From Hydrogenothermaceae bacterium (GTDB lineage: Bacteria > Aquificota > Aquificia > Aquificales > Hydrogenothermaceae): DNA of 64,000 nt. The notes under the pieces were generated by a model, which did not search any database, was not told where the DNA came from, and worked only from the letters and a program-made list of their open reading frames with translations. Location: positions 124,001 through 188,000 of the forward strand of contig JAOABH010000004.1 of assembly GCA_026418455.1 (NCBI GenBank), written 5' to 3'. Positions 47,958 to 52,731 of the stretch are shown piece after piece; within the stretch, counting starts at the first letter, position 1; each line of letters opens with the position of its first letter. The position numbers and the translations under genes are program-made.

Positions 47958-50521
47958 ATGGAAGAAAACTTAACACCTATGATAGCTCAGTATAATGCTA
48001 TAAAAAATCAGTATAAAGATTATCTTTTACTTTACAGACTTGGAGATTTTTATGAGCTGTTTTATGAAGATGCTATTATAGGTGCAAGGGAGTTGAATAT
48101 AGTTTTAACAAAGAAAAAGATATCTAAGGATAAAGATATTCCTATGTGTGGTATTCCTTACCATTCAGCTGATAGTTATATATCAAAACTTGTTTCCAAG
48201 GGCTACACAGTTGCAATATGTGAGCAACTTGAAGATGCATCTCAATCAAAAGGAATAGTTAGAAGAGATGTTATAAGGATTATAACTCCGGGAACATACT
48301 TTGACAATGATAAGTTAAAAACTGGAGTTGTTTCTATTATAAAAAAGGAGAAAACTTCTCTACTTCCTATATAAATCTATCTACAGGAGAGTTTTACTGT
48401 AGTGTATTCAATCAGGAAGGTTTGGTTAGCTTTTTAAACAAATTTTCACCAAAGGAAGTGGTGGTTGAAAAGGAAAAAGATTTTTCTTTTATAAGACAGC
48501 AGTTTAAAAATCTATTTTTAACTGAACTTGATAATCAGTTTTTTGAAGAGAGTAAAATAGATATACTTTTAAAACATTTCAATGTATCCCATTACAGAGC
48601 ATTTGGGATAGACCAAAAAGATGAATTTGCTTTACAATCTGCCTCCGTTATTCTTAACTATGTTAAAACAACCCAGAAAAATTTTCTGCCTTTTATCTTC
48701 CCTCCTAAACTTTATAGAGAAGATATTTATATGAGATTAGATCAAAATGCTATAAAACATCTTGAAGTTATAAACAGTGAAGGAGGGATATCCCTTTTCT
48801 CTCTTATAGATAGAACACTTACCGGAATGGGTAGAAGAAAACTAAAATTTTTCCTACTTCATCCATTAAAAGATAAAAAAGATATAGACAAAAGATTTGA
48901 AGCTGTAGAAGAGTTATACAAAAATCATAGTCTCAGAAATGAAATAAGAGAGATTTTAAAAGATATATTTGATATTGAGAGGTTAATATCAAGGATAACA
49001 TCTAATACTCTCACTCCACGGGATATGGTATCTCTAAAACAGTCTTTAAAAAATGTTTCAAAACTTAAAGAGTTAAAATCTAAAGTTAAATCCCATTTAC
49101 TTATAGAGATAATCAGAAATATAAACGATCATACAGAACTTACAGAATTACTTGAAACACATCTTGAAGATAATCCTCCTATACATTTTAGAGAAGGAGG
49201 ATTGATTAAAGATGGTGTTGATAACTATCTTGATGAATTAAGAAAGATAAAAGAAAAAGCTCAGGAGTGGATAACTAAATATCAAGAAGAAGAGAGAAAA
49301 AGAACTGGAATCAGCAGTTTAAAAATAGGTTATAACAAGGTTATGGGATACTATATAGAGGTAACAAAACCAAATCTAAAATTCATTCCTTCTAATTATA
49401 GAAGAAGACAGACTTTATCAAATGCAGAGAGATTTATAACTACAGAACTTCAGGAGTTTGAGGATAAAGTTTTATCTGCAGATGAAAAAATAAAAAATTT
49501 AGAGTATGAGATATTCAGTAAAATCAGGGAAGAGGTTATAAAACAGTCTCCTTCAATTGAAGAGACAGCAAGATGGGTAGCCTTTTTAGACGCCATAACT
49601 TCTCTTGCCCAGATTTCTGTTGAGAAAGGTTGGAGAAAACCGGAGATAACCGAAAGTTATGATATGTATTTAGAAGAAGCTGTCCATCCTGTAGTTGCAA
49701 GTAACTATCCAGAGTTTGTCCCTAACTCTGTAAAATTTGATAAAGATAACTTTATCCATATAATAACCGGACCAAATATGTCCGGGAAAAGCACATTTAT
49801 AAGACAGGTTGGACTCATTGTATTACTTGCCCATGTGGGATGTTTTATTCCTGCATCTTCCGGAATAATTCCCATAACAGATGCTATCTATACGAGGATA
49901 GGATCCGGAGATAACCTATCTAAGGGACTATCTACTTTTATGGTAGAGATGCTTGAAGTGGCAAATATACTTAATAACGCAACGGAGAGAAGTTTAATAA
50001 TCCTTGATGAAGTTGGAAGAGGGACAAGCACCTATGATGGTATCTCTATCGCTTGGTCTCTATGCGAAAAGATAGCCAAAGATATTAAAGCCAAAACCCT
50101 GTTTTCAAGCCATTATCATGAACTTACAGAGATAGAAAAAGATATAAGGGGAGTTAGAAACTACTTTATGGCTGTTGTAGAGGAAAAAGACAGTATAAGA
50201 TTCTTGTATAAAATATTGGAAGGAAAATCAGATAAAAGTTACGGTATACACGTGGCAAAACTTGCCGGACTGCCTAAGGATGTTATAGATAGAGCCAACC
50301 ATATACTAACTAAACTTGAAAGAGATGAAAAACAGGAAAAACTGTATTTCAACCAAACTGTTCTTGAGAAAATGTTGCCAATAGAGGAACATTCAGAATT
50401 AACTGAGGTTATCAAAATGTTAGAAGATTTGGATATAGCAAATTTAACTCCCTTGCAAGCTTTAATAATACTTAATGACCTTAAAAATAGCTTAAAAATT
50501 AAAAAAACTCTTGACAAATGA
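47958..50521 (+). CDS. mutS: DNA mismatch repair protein MutS, reading frame broken (possible -1 frameshift)
   Basis: The frame starting at 47958 codes 138 residues and stops at 48374; the rest of MutS continues in the -1 frame to 50521. Joined at 48347 the product is about 854 aa, the family length. The N-terminal part has the mismatch-reading F-Y-E (G-D-F-Y-E-L-F); the larger part has Walker [21 protein letters not shown] and S-S-H-Y-H-E-L. The break sits at A-AAA-AAG, so it may be programmed slippage, a real mutation, or a homopolymer sequencing error. If unrepaired the cell would lack MutS. Confidence 0.88.
48341..48395 (+). promoter_or_regulatory. mutS: Candidate -1 frameshift site in mutS
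   Basis: A-AAA-AAG (48341-48347) is in the correct zero-frame phase. GGAG lies 13 nt upstream (48324-48327). Downstream, 48351-48361 can pair with 48386-48395 (about 10 pairs, one bulge). This is the layout of the E. coli dnaX site. Slipping by -1 reads on as [16 protein letters not shown], the expected MutS sequence. Confidence 0.5.
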
Positions 50522-50572: not shown

Positions 50573-50845
50573 ATGACAAAGTCAGAGCTCGTTTCAAAAA
50601 CTGCTGAGAAGGCAGGAATCACTAAGGCAGCAGCAGAGAGAGCAGTTAACGCTGCTATTGAAGCTGTTGTTGAAGCTCTTGCGAAGGGTGAGAGAGTTGC
50701 TATTCCAGGACTTGGAGTTTTCAACGTAAGACAGAGAAAGGCAAGAAAAGGCAGAAACCCAAGAACTGGAAAACCAATCACTATCCCGGCAAGAAAAGTT
50801 GTATCATTTACTGCTGCAAAATCTCTAAAAGAGAAAGTGAAGTAA
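50573..50845 (+). CDS. DNA-binding protein HU
   Basis: 90 aa, standard length. M-T-K-S-E-L-V-S-K-T-A-E-K-A-G-I at the N-terminus, the G-L-G-V-F loop and the DNA-binding arm with R-x-G-R-N-P-R-T-G-K-P-I, where the Pro intercalates, are all present. It bends and compacts DNA. It has its own promoter, a strong AAGGAGGGA ribosome site and a terminator, so it is expressed apart from mutS. Confidence 0.97.
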   Translation: MTKSELVSKTAEKAGITKAAAERAVNAAIEAVVEALAKGERVAIPGLGVFNVRQRKARKGRNPRTGKPITIPARKVVSFTAAKSLKEKVK

Positions 50846-50852
50846 TCTTTAT

Positions 50853-50874
50853 AAAGGGGGTATATCCCCCTTTT
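50853..50874 (+). terminator. Hairpin terminator after HU
   Basis: AAAGGGGG / CCCCCTTT form a perfect 8-bp stem with loop TATAT, 8 nt after the HU stop. Only four T follow before an A-run that leads into the next ribosome site. Confidence 0.8.
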
Positions 50875-50890
50875 AAAAAAGGAGATAAAA

Positions 50891-51619
50891 ATTAGGTTAG
50901 ATAAATTTCTTTCTAATCGAGGATTTGGAAGTAGAACACAGGTTCAAAGACTTATAAGGCAAGGTTTTGTTAAAGTTAACAGTCAAACTGTAAAAGATCC
51001 CTCTATCAAAATAGATCCTATGAAGGATAAAGTTTCTGTTGATGATGAAGATGTATATTTTCAGGAAAATTATTACTTTATGTTAAACAAGCCCGCTGGA
51101 TATATAACGGCTACATTTGATGAAAATGAACCTACAGTTTTAGATTTTTTTATGGATTTTCCATTAGTAGAAAAACTTTTTCCGGTAGGTAGATTAGATA
51201 GAGATACGGAAGGACTTCTTATAATAACAACAGATGGTCAGTTTGCTCACCGTTTAGCTCATCCCAAGTGGAACATTGAGAAGGAGTATTTTGCTATTGT
51301 AGAAGGTGATGTATCTGATATAGATTTTTCTCCATACGAGAAAAAAGGATTATATTTAAGGAAAGATAAATACACTACAAAACCTTTTAAAGTAAGAGTT
51401 ATAAAAAGTTCTCCTGAAAAATCTGAGATCTATATTACTGTTTCTGAAGGGAAGTATCACATTGTAAAAAAGATAATGGGAGAGCTTAAACATCCGGTTT
51501 TGTATTTAAAGAGAGTACGTATAGGTAATTTAATTTTAGATGAGATATTAGAAGCAGGTGAATATAGGGAACTAACAAAAGAAGAGATAGAATATCTTAA
51601 AAGTTTGGTTAGGCTATGA
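50891..51619 (+). CDS. RsuA/RluE-family rRNA pseudouridine synthase with ATT start
   Basis: 242 aa if read from ATT at 50891. From there R-L-D-K-F-L-S-N-R-G-F-G-S-R gives a full S4 RNA-binding domain, and AAGGAG ends 6 nt before the ATT. No ATG, GTG or TTG exists between the stop at 50852 and the ATG at 51020, which would cut the S4 domain away. The catalytic Asp is in G-R-L-D-R-D-T-E-G-L-L. The enzyme makes pseudouridine in 16S or 23S rRNA. It overlaps the MFS gene by 4 nt. Confidence 0.85.
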   Translation: MRLDKFLSNRGFGSRTQVQRLIRQGFVKVNSQTVKDPSIKIDPMKDKVSVDDEDVYFQENYYFMLNKPAGYITATFDENEPTVLDFFMDFPLVEKLFPVGRLDRDTEGLLIITTDGQFAHRLAHPKWNIEKEYFAIVEGDVSDIDFSPYEKKGLYLRKDKYTTKPFKVRVIKSSPEKSEIYITVSEGKYHIVKKIMGELKHPVLYLKRVRIGNLILDEILEAGEYRELTKEEIEYLKSLVRL

Positions 51620-52731
51620 AGAAAACTCTGTCATTTTCTCTATTTGATACAGGGGAAACTATACTCGGAGCTTTAATCTTTTCCACATTCTTCCCCCTTT
51701 ACATAACAAAACATATTGACACTAAAATATACAGTTATACATATAGTTTTGCATTTTTAGTATCATTTTTATTTGCATTACACCTGGGTAAGATAGCAGA
51801 TAGATATGCTCTGAGAAAGCAGTTTTTTATAACTTTTGTTTTGATAACGACCTTAATGTGTATATCTCTATTTTTTACTACAAATTTCCCAGTTTTGTCT
51901 TTACTAATCTTTGTCCTTATGGCAGTATCCCATCAGCAGAGTTTTGTTTTCTATAATTCTTTACTTCTTGATTTTCAGAGCAGAGGGCTGGCTTCTGGTA
52001 TAGGTGTTAGCTTTGGTTATATAGGCTCTGCTGTTGCTCTTATATTTTTGGCAGATAAACTTTCTATTCCAATTGTTTACTTAGTAGTGGCTTTTTTATT
52101 CTTAATCCTATCTCTCCCATCTATGGTATTTCTTGAAAATCCAAAGATCTCAACATCTGTTTCTCTGAAAGAGATTTTTAAAGATAGAAAATTTCTATTA
52201 ACCATCGTATCAATACTATCTATTACAGAAGTTGCAAACACTCTCATTGCAATGATGGGGATATATTTAAAAAAAGTTTTTGGATTTGAGGATATTTTTG
52301 TATATAAGGTTATAGGACTGTCTGCTGTAGGTGGCATATTAGGTGGAATCTTCTGGGGGTTTCTATCTGATAGATTTTCTGCCACTAAAATCTTTCCTAT
52401 AGGATTCTTCATATGGAGTTTATTGTTGTTAACTTTACCTTTCGTTACTTCTGAAACTGTCCTTTTATTTGGATTTTTTGCCGGATTTTCCTTGTCTCAT
52501 CTTTGGACAGTTTCAAGGGTTTATATAATAGAGGAATTCCCAGCTAAGGAAGTTTCTACAAGGATGTCATTTCTGTCCCTAACAGAGAGGATTGCGGCTA
52601 CCACAGGACTGTTTATATGGGGAACTTTACTGTATTTGACTAATGATAACTATCCACTTTCAGCTGCTTCTATGTCTATTTTCCCACTAATTGGATTCTT
52701 TATATATCTTCTATCCAAGAAGATCACTTAA
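51616..52731 (+). CDS. MFS transporter, UMF1-like
   Basis: 371 aa with about 11-12 hydrophobic helices. S-L-F-D-T-G-E-T-I-L-G-A at the start and F-P-L-Y, then G-K-I-A-D-R-Y-A-L-R-K as the loop 2-3 motif, and G-F-L-S-D-R-F-S in the second half point to the UMF1 (Atg22-like) branch of the major facilitator superfamily. The substrate is unknown; relatives are linked to amino acid efflux. It begins in a 4-nt overlap with the pseudouridine synthase and converges on the cupredoxin gene with an 8-bp overlap. Confidence 0.8.
   Translation: MKKTLSFSLFDTGETILGALIFSTFFPLYITKHIDTKIYSYTYSFAFLVSFLFALHLGKIADRYALRKQFFITFVLITTLMCISLFFTTNFPVLSLLIFVLMAVSHQQSFVFYNSLLLDFQSRGLASGIGVSFGYIGSAVALIFLADKLSIPIVYLVVAFLFLILSLPSMVFLENPKISTSVSLKEIFKDRKFLLTIVSILSITEVANTLIAMMGIYLKKVFGFEDIFVYKVIGLSAVGGILGGIFWGFLSDRFSATKIFPIGFFIWSLLLLTLPFVTSETVLLFGFFAGFSLSHLWTVSRVYIIEEFPAKEVSTRMSFLSLTERIAATTGLFIWGTLLYLTNDNYPLSAASMSIFPLIGFFIYLLSKKIT

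Follow-up and report, generated by a model that had tools for sequence, protein, structure and literature searches.

The closest described systems are genes translated from AUU, AUA, or AUC (AUH) codons. The start of infC is AUU in Escherichia coli, where it serves IF3 autocontrol, and AUA in Staphylococcus aureus (PMC13009471). In E. coli pcnB, an AUU start (Binns and Masters, 2002, as cited in PMC13009471) limits an RNA-modifying enzyme needed in small amounts. Two further S. aureus genes, cvfC1 (AUU) and ccpN (AUA), were documented by ribosome profiling and reporters, and in S. aureus reporters AUU and AUA reach ~10–30% of AUG (PMC13009471). An AUU start has also been proposed for two lepA genes (PMC1780047). 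Conservation of such codons as starts is very rare: one reconstruction found 1 AUG-to-AUU switch per 61,358 ancestral AUG starts (PMC5622118). Our literature search, which had incomplete coverage, did not turn up an AUU start for rsuA.

We analyzed a 64,000-nt stretch of DNA (the window) from a heat-loving member of the Hydrogenothermaceae, in which an rsuA-like gene appears to open with ATT. The gene has an AUH codon at a conserved N-terminus and a well-spaced Shine-Dalgarno (SD) sequence, and the arrangement is conserved in the window genome and 13 relatives. Judged by these comparisons, rsuA adds a new, conserved case to the infC/pcnB class of AUU/AUA/AUC starts, with an unusually clear comparative record. 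It resembles infC in combining an AUH codon with a strong SD and in conservation among relatives, but it does not encode IF3, control would be in trans, and its AUH start is not family-wide. By analogy with pcnB, the AUU may limit an RNA-modifying enzyme needed in small amounts, although the enzyme and the lineage differ. With cvfC1 and ccpN it shares the conserved non-canonical start and strong SD; those genes have other functions, and the evidence for rsuA is comparative.

Architecture of the rsuA-like Locus

The locus contains the following features.
50573–50845, + strand: gene for an HU-type DNA-binding protein, the upstream neighbor (open reading frame; HU named from sequence), with an ATG start and the SD AAGGAGG
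50852–50854, + strand: in-frame stop TAA 5′ of the rsuA frame (read from the sequence)
50853–50873, + strand: hairpin AAAGGGGG-UAUAU-CCCCCUUU followed by a T-run, probable HU terminator (stem present in both MFE and centroid folds)
50879–50884, + strand: SD AAGGAG, ending 6 nt short of the ATT, with a duplex energy of −8.7 kcal/mol
50891–50893, + strand: ATT start codon (ATT, ATA, or ATC in 14/34 orthologous loci, by comparison of those loci)
50891–51619, + strand: RsuA-like pseudouridine synthase, 242 aa, with S4 at residues 2–44 and PseudoU_synth_2 at 61–196 (Pfam, profile, and structure matches)
51020–51022, + strand: ATG at codon 44, the earliest canonical codon of the frame; has neither an SD nor conservation and was rejected as the start
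51616–52731, + strand: transporter-like gene (12-TM MFS type, by reading of the sequence), overlapping the rsuA stop by 4 nt

Direct reading of the sequence shows the SD separated from the ATT by ATAAAA (6 nt), and the ATT followed by AGG TTA GAT AAA (RLDK) in a frame of 242 codons that ends at 51619. Between the TAA at 50852–50854 and the ATT the frame reads agg ggg tat atc ccc ctt tta aaa aag gag ata aaa and contains no ATG, GTG, TTG, or CTG, so the earliest canonical codon in the frame is the ATG at 51020–51022. The preliminary description, made from the letters alone, had proposed the ATT as the start; its coordinates for the locus are all right, and our reading bears out both the AAGGAG with its 6-nt gap and the lack of any in-frame ATG, GTG, or TTG back to the stop at 50852. 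A start at the in-frame ATA at 50885 was rejected, since this codon follows the SD without a gap.

The ATT lies 45 nt behind the HU gene, and HU is found 5′ of rsuA in 31 of the 34 orthologous loci. The hairpin at 50853–50873 was not listed by a simple scan; similar G/C-rich hairpins occur 5′ of most rsuA orthologues, and save for this terminator-like element the fold of the rsuA start region is not unusual (z = −1.03). An Rfam scan of the 64,000-nt window returned only a tRNA, and thus no known riboregulator at the rsuA start. Downstream, the transporter-like neighbor is kept in genera g1, g9, and g10, and in g6 and g7 at 33–36% identity. Transcription of the rsuA-like gene probably comes from HU transcripts that continue past the terminator.

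Identity of the Encoded Protein

The S4 and PseudoU_synth_2 domains score above the curated Pfam cut-offs (52.8 and 75.4 bits, respectively), and the model of the RsuA/RluB/E/F pseudouridine synthase family, TIGR00093, is passed at 134.3 bits (cut-off 109.3). RsuA is by far the top scorer among the equivalog models, but at 186.7 bits the protein falls below the NCBI RsuA equivalog cut-off (NF008097, 275 bits), and it is therefore named RsuA-like. Among proteins of solved structure the top matches are two RsuA proteins (1vio, 174.9 bits; 1ksk, 154.5 bits), with RluB at 77 bits. The alignment to RsuA, the 16S rRNA pseudouridine 516 synthase, begins at the ATT codon and is full length from residue 1, with the same domain order and a shared GRLDxDTxGL motif. 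In RsuA the S4 domain matters in substrate recognition, and the substrate is early 30S assembly intermediates (PMC7356742).

Start Codons of the Orthologues

A full orthologue is present in 33 of 41 Hydrogenothermaceae genomes, which together with one further contig (L037) gave 34 orthologous loci. In 14 of these, from six genera of one family, the codon aligned with Met1 is ATT (10), ATA (3), or ATC (1), without a plausible canonical start. They comprise the window genome, its congener, every complete orthologue of the sister genus g9 (five), representatives of g5, g6, and g10, and four near-identical members of g7. Upstream candidates exist in three of the 14: an ATG at −39 nt (L007) and a GTG at −54 nt (L012), both without an SD, and, in L020, a CTG at −6 nt, which is crowded by the SD. 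In six loci (L009, L010, L017, L018, L021, and L032) a stop closes the frame five or six codons 5′ of the ATH codon, leaving no alternative start save another rare codon.

The remaining 20 loci have a canonical ATG or TTG, placed three codons upstream in 14, mostly reading M/L-K-K-x-RLD, and at the Met1 column itself in six. In the 14 loci with the upstream canonical codon the Met1 column holds ATC, ATA, GTA, GTT, TTA, or CTC, never ATG, which suggests, without proof, that the AUH state is the older and the upstream canonical starts came later. The tree, in which the ATH count is one too high because G125 is tagged ATH despite an ATG four codons upstream, is compatible with a single AUH origin followed by losses or with several gains. 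Relatives with ATG, which the preliminary description had named as evidence against its proposal, do occur, but only in more distant genera and in the nearby contig L037; the congener and the nearest genomes all have ATT, ATA, or ATC. A sequencing error as the source of the ATT was rejected, since 13 other genomes agree.

Contig L037 (JAPYWU010000093.1) is filed under a Dictyoglomaceae MAG, although its rsuA is of Hydrogenothermaceae type (69% identical) and falls inside the family, beside g1 and g9; it is likely mis-binned. Its start is an ATG with a good SD.

Controls gave ordinary starts. In each of the 13 family genomes read, the rsuA paralogue carries an ATG at the column or next to it. 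Canonical starts also mark the 20 orthologous loci read beyond the family, at two or three of which the start is displaced upstream by a few codons. The orthologues outside the family have an ordinary SD with ATG, TTG, or GTG, and no HU neighbor within the kilobase examined.

Among seven close relatives, divergence at codon positions 1/2/3 is 0.56/0.58/0.54 over the 12 codons 5′ of the ATH codon. The corresponding values are 0.17/0.11/0.36 for codons 2–43 and 0.23/0.13/0.50 for the remainder of the gene. This change from flat differences to a coding pattern at codon 2 indicates that protein-coding selection on the rsuA frame begins at the ATH codon. Translation of the rsuA-like gene from the AUU at 50891 is thus well supported by comparison of relatives, more strongly than could be known from the window's letters.

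Strength of Initiation behind the HU Gene

The SD–antiSD energy has a median of −8.3 kcal/mol for the AUH starts, with weaker values (−4.0 to −5.9) in the four near-identical g7 genomes, and of +1.0 at the 20 loci with a canonical start, L037 being an exception at −8.9. The difference gives p = 9e-6 (Mann-Whitney), a value that is descriptive only, as the genomes are related. Starts without an SD (energy at or above −1) make up 8.6% of 314 genes in the window genome and 7.9% of 114 genes in G016, whose rsuA is of the TTG-AAG-AAA type. Because SD-less canonical starts are this rare (8–9% of genes), both rsuA arrangements appear weak. We infer that in nearly every family member rsuA behind HU is weakly initiated, either because the codon is weak, though served by a good SD, or because a canonical codon has no SD; as far as comparison can tell, the property conserved in the family is thus low initiation downstream of HU, achieved by two routes.

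AUH Starts in Other Genes of the Family

The start codon of infC (IF3) was ATT, or ATC in g4, in 30 of 30 family loci read (L067–L096), mostly after GGAGG-type sites. We surveyed 720 kb of the window genome against 1.2 Mb of a second genome, G033 (about half of the former and three quarters of the latter), for an ATH codon with a strong SD at a conserved N-terminus and no canonical start before the conserved sequence. AUH starts that have a weak SD, or that are followed within a few codons by a canonical one, would escape this design. Among 424 usable reciprocal gene pairs, only rsuA and one MBL-fold gene fit the pattern. On these pairs, the idea of general AUH use in the lineage was rejected: most of the 43 raw candidates proved on inspection to be internal Ile codons, leaving these two genes. 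In one pair (a42/b75), homology 5′ of the first canonical codon was traced to a switch of reading frame at a conserved A run rather than to an AUH start. The combination of two genomes, the boundary of coding constraint, and the SD is a simple way to find further AUH genes.

The MBL-fold gene (PF12706) is RNase Z-like, far below the equivalog cut-offs. It has ATT or ATA in g1, g9, g10, and g5 and ATG/TTG/GTG-type starts in other genera. At the loci read (L197, at G000:C3:32719-32850 on the minus strand, L198–L206, and L217) the codon is ATT, or ATA in g5, with GGAGG ~9 nt upstream, and the gene overlaps the end of the preceding one. The AUH codon is therefore not reserved for rRNA modification.

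Proposed Role of the AUU Start

The AUU of rsuA probably acts as a translational throttle, and IF3 sensitivity would follow from the codon. The HU transcript would pass the probable terminator, and read-through would reach the rsuA-like gene; there the strong AAGGAG would compensate for the near-cognate AUU at 50891, and the codon would keep a low-demand enzyme scarce, as in E. coli pcnB. Initiation on rsuA is presumably slow. We favor throttling as the selected function since weak initiation is kept in both ways and the HU message is presumably abundant, while the product of the next gene would have to stay scarce. The account is incomplete, in that two loci (L010 and L011) keep ATT without HU, so that an HU neighbor is not a strict part of the arrangement. 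Also weighing against it are the ATG or TTG starts of 20 of the 34 loci, the weaker SD of the four g7 genomes, and the ATG with a good SD in L037. The AUU may in addition tie the enzyme to the translation machinery: a rise of IF3 relative to 30S subunits would lower rsuA expression, as for infC.

The preliminary description had proposed a feedback in which an rRNA-modifying enzyme is set by the balance of IF3 and ribosomes. In such a scheme the AUU couples an enzyme of early 30S assembly to the IF3/30S ratio, and 30S subunits exceeding IF3 give more RsuA. IF3 discriminates against codons without a 3′ G, according to a review, and AUH codons are so discriminated in other bacteria (PMC4611024). 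Since the family's infC itself carries such a codon (ATT or ATC in the 30 loci read), it is fair to predict that rsuA is IF3-sensitive. The scheme also draws on the action of RsuA on early 30S assembly intermediates (PMC7356742) and on the interchange of ATT, ATA, and ATC with avoidance of ATG in 14 genomes. Against it, other genera of the family use SD-less ATG or TTG starts, which are weak but not sensed by codon, and an AUH start is found in the RNase Z-like gene as well. Selection for IF3 sensing is on balance unlikely and is not the simplest reading of the AUU, although a physiological feedback loop is possible. Somewhat more doubtful is a broader version, in which the AUH class of the family (infC, rsuA, and the RNase Z-like gene) would be a small regulon set by the IF3/30S ratio, the AUH of rsuA being ancestral and later replaced by SD-less canonical starts. 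The occurrence of AUH across genera in a ribosome-modifying enzyme, beside an AUU-started infC, provides a natural comparative test of throttling versus IF3 sensing.

Neutral drift, in which an AUH codon is tolerated in a lineage with good SD usage and brings no gain from low expression or IF3 sensitivity, would accommodate the second AUH gene in the same lineages and the repeated loss or gain of the AUH state of rsuA. It appears improbable given the rarity of AUH starts here (2 genes in 424 pairs) and of AUG-to-AUU switches in general (1 in 61,358; PMC5622118), and given that a third-base G, a one-step change, is absent from the Met1 codon in all 14 AUH genomes.

Alternatives to Initiation at AUU

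Initiation at the ATG at 51020, or at another internal codon, with the S4-encoding sequence upstream left untranslated, is very improbable. That ATG is the first canonical codon in the frame, but it lacks an SD, the first canonical codon of relatives varies in place (codons +43 to +63), and codons 2–43 show coding constraint. Because Pfam places S4 at residues 2–44, upstream of this ATG as the preliminary description had noted, a start there would remove the domain, and gene finders restricted to ATG, GTG, and TTG would cut it from the RsuA-like protein in the same way.

Entry into the rsuA frame from HU by stop read-through or frameshifting, giving a fusion instead of an AUU start, is likewise very improbable: HU and rsuA share one frame in the window (stops at 50843 and 50852), but two in-frame stops and the hairpin lie between them, the upstream codons are unconstrained, HU–rsuA spacing varies among relatives, and L010 and L011 keep the ATT without HU upstream.

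Frame Changes at A Runs Elsewhere

The mutS gene of the window (47958–50521, + strand) is split into two frames, the N-terminal part running from the ATG at 47958 to a stop at ~48374. The frames exchange near an A6 run at ~48341, and mutS of G033 is a longer uninterrupted frame. Slippage or a genuine lesion could underlie the split, as could an error in sequencing or assembly. Programmed slippage or frameshifting has been described for E. coli copA. Near 661,600 (+ strand) of G000:C3, with matches in G033 and G016, a heavy-metal P-type ATPase-like gene changes frame at an A9 run (TTTTGAAAAAAAAAGTTAGA); three genera share the run without change, and this gene may therefore undergo programmed slippage or frameshifting.
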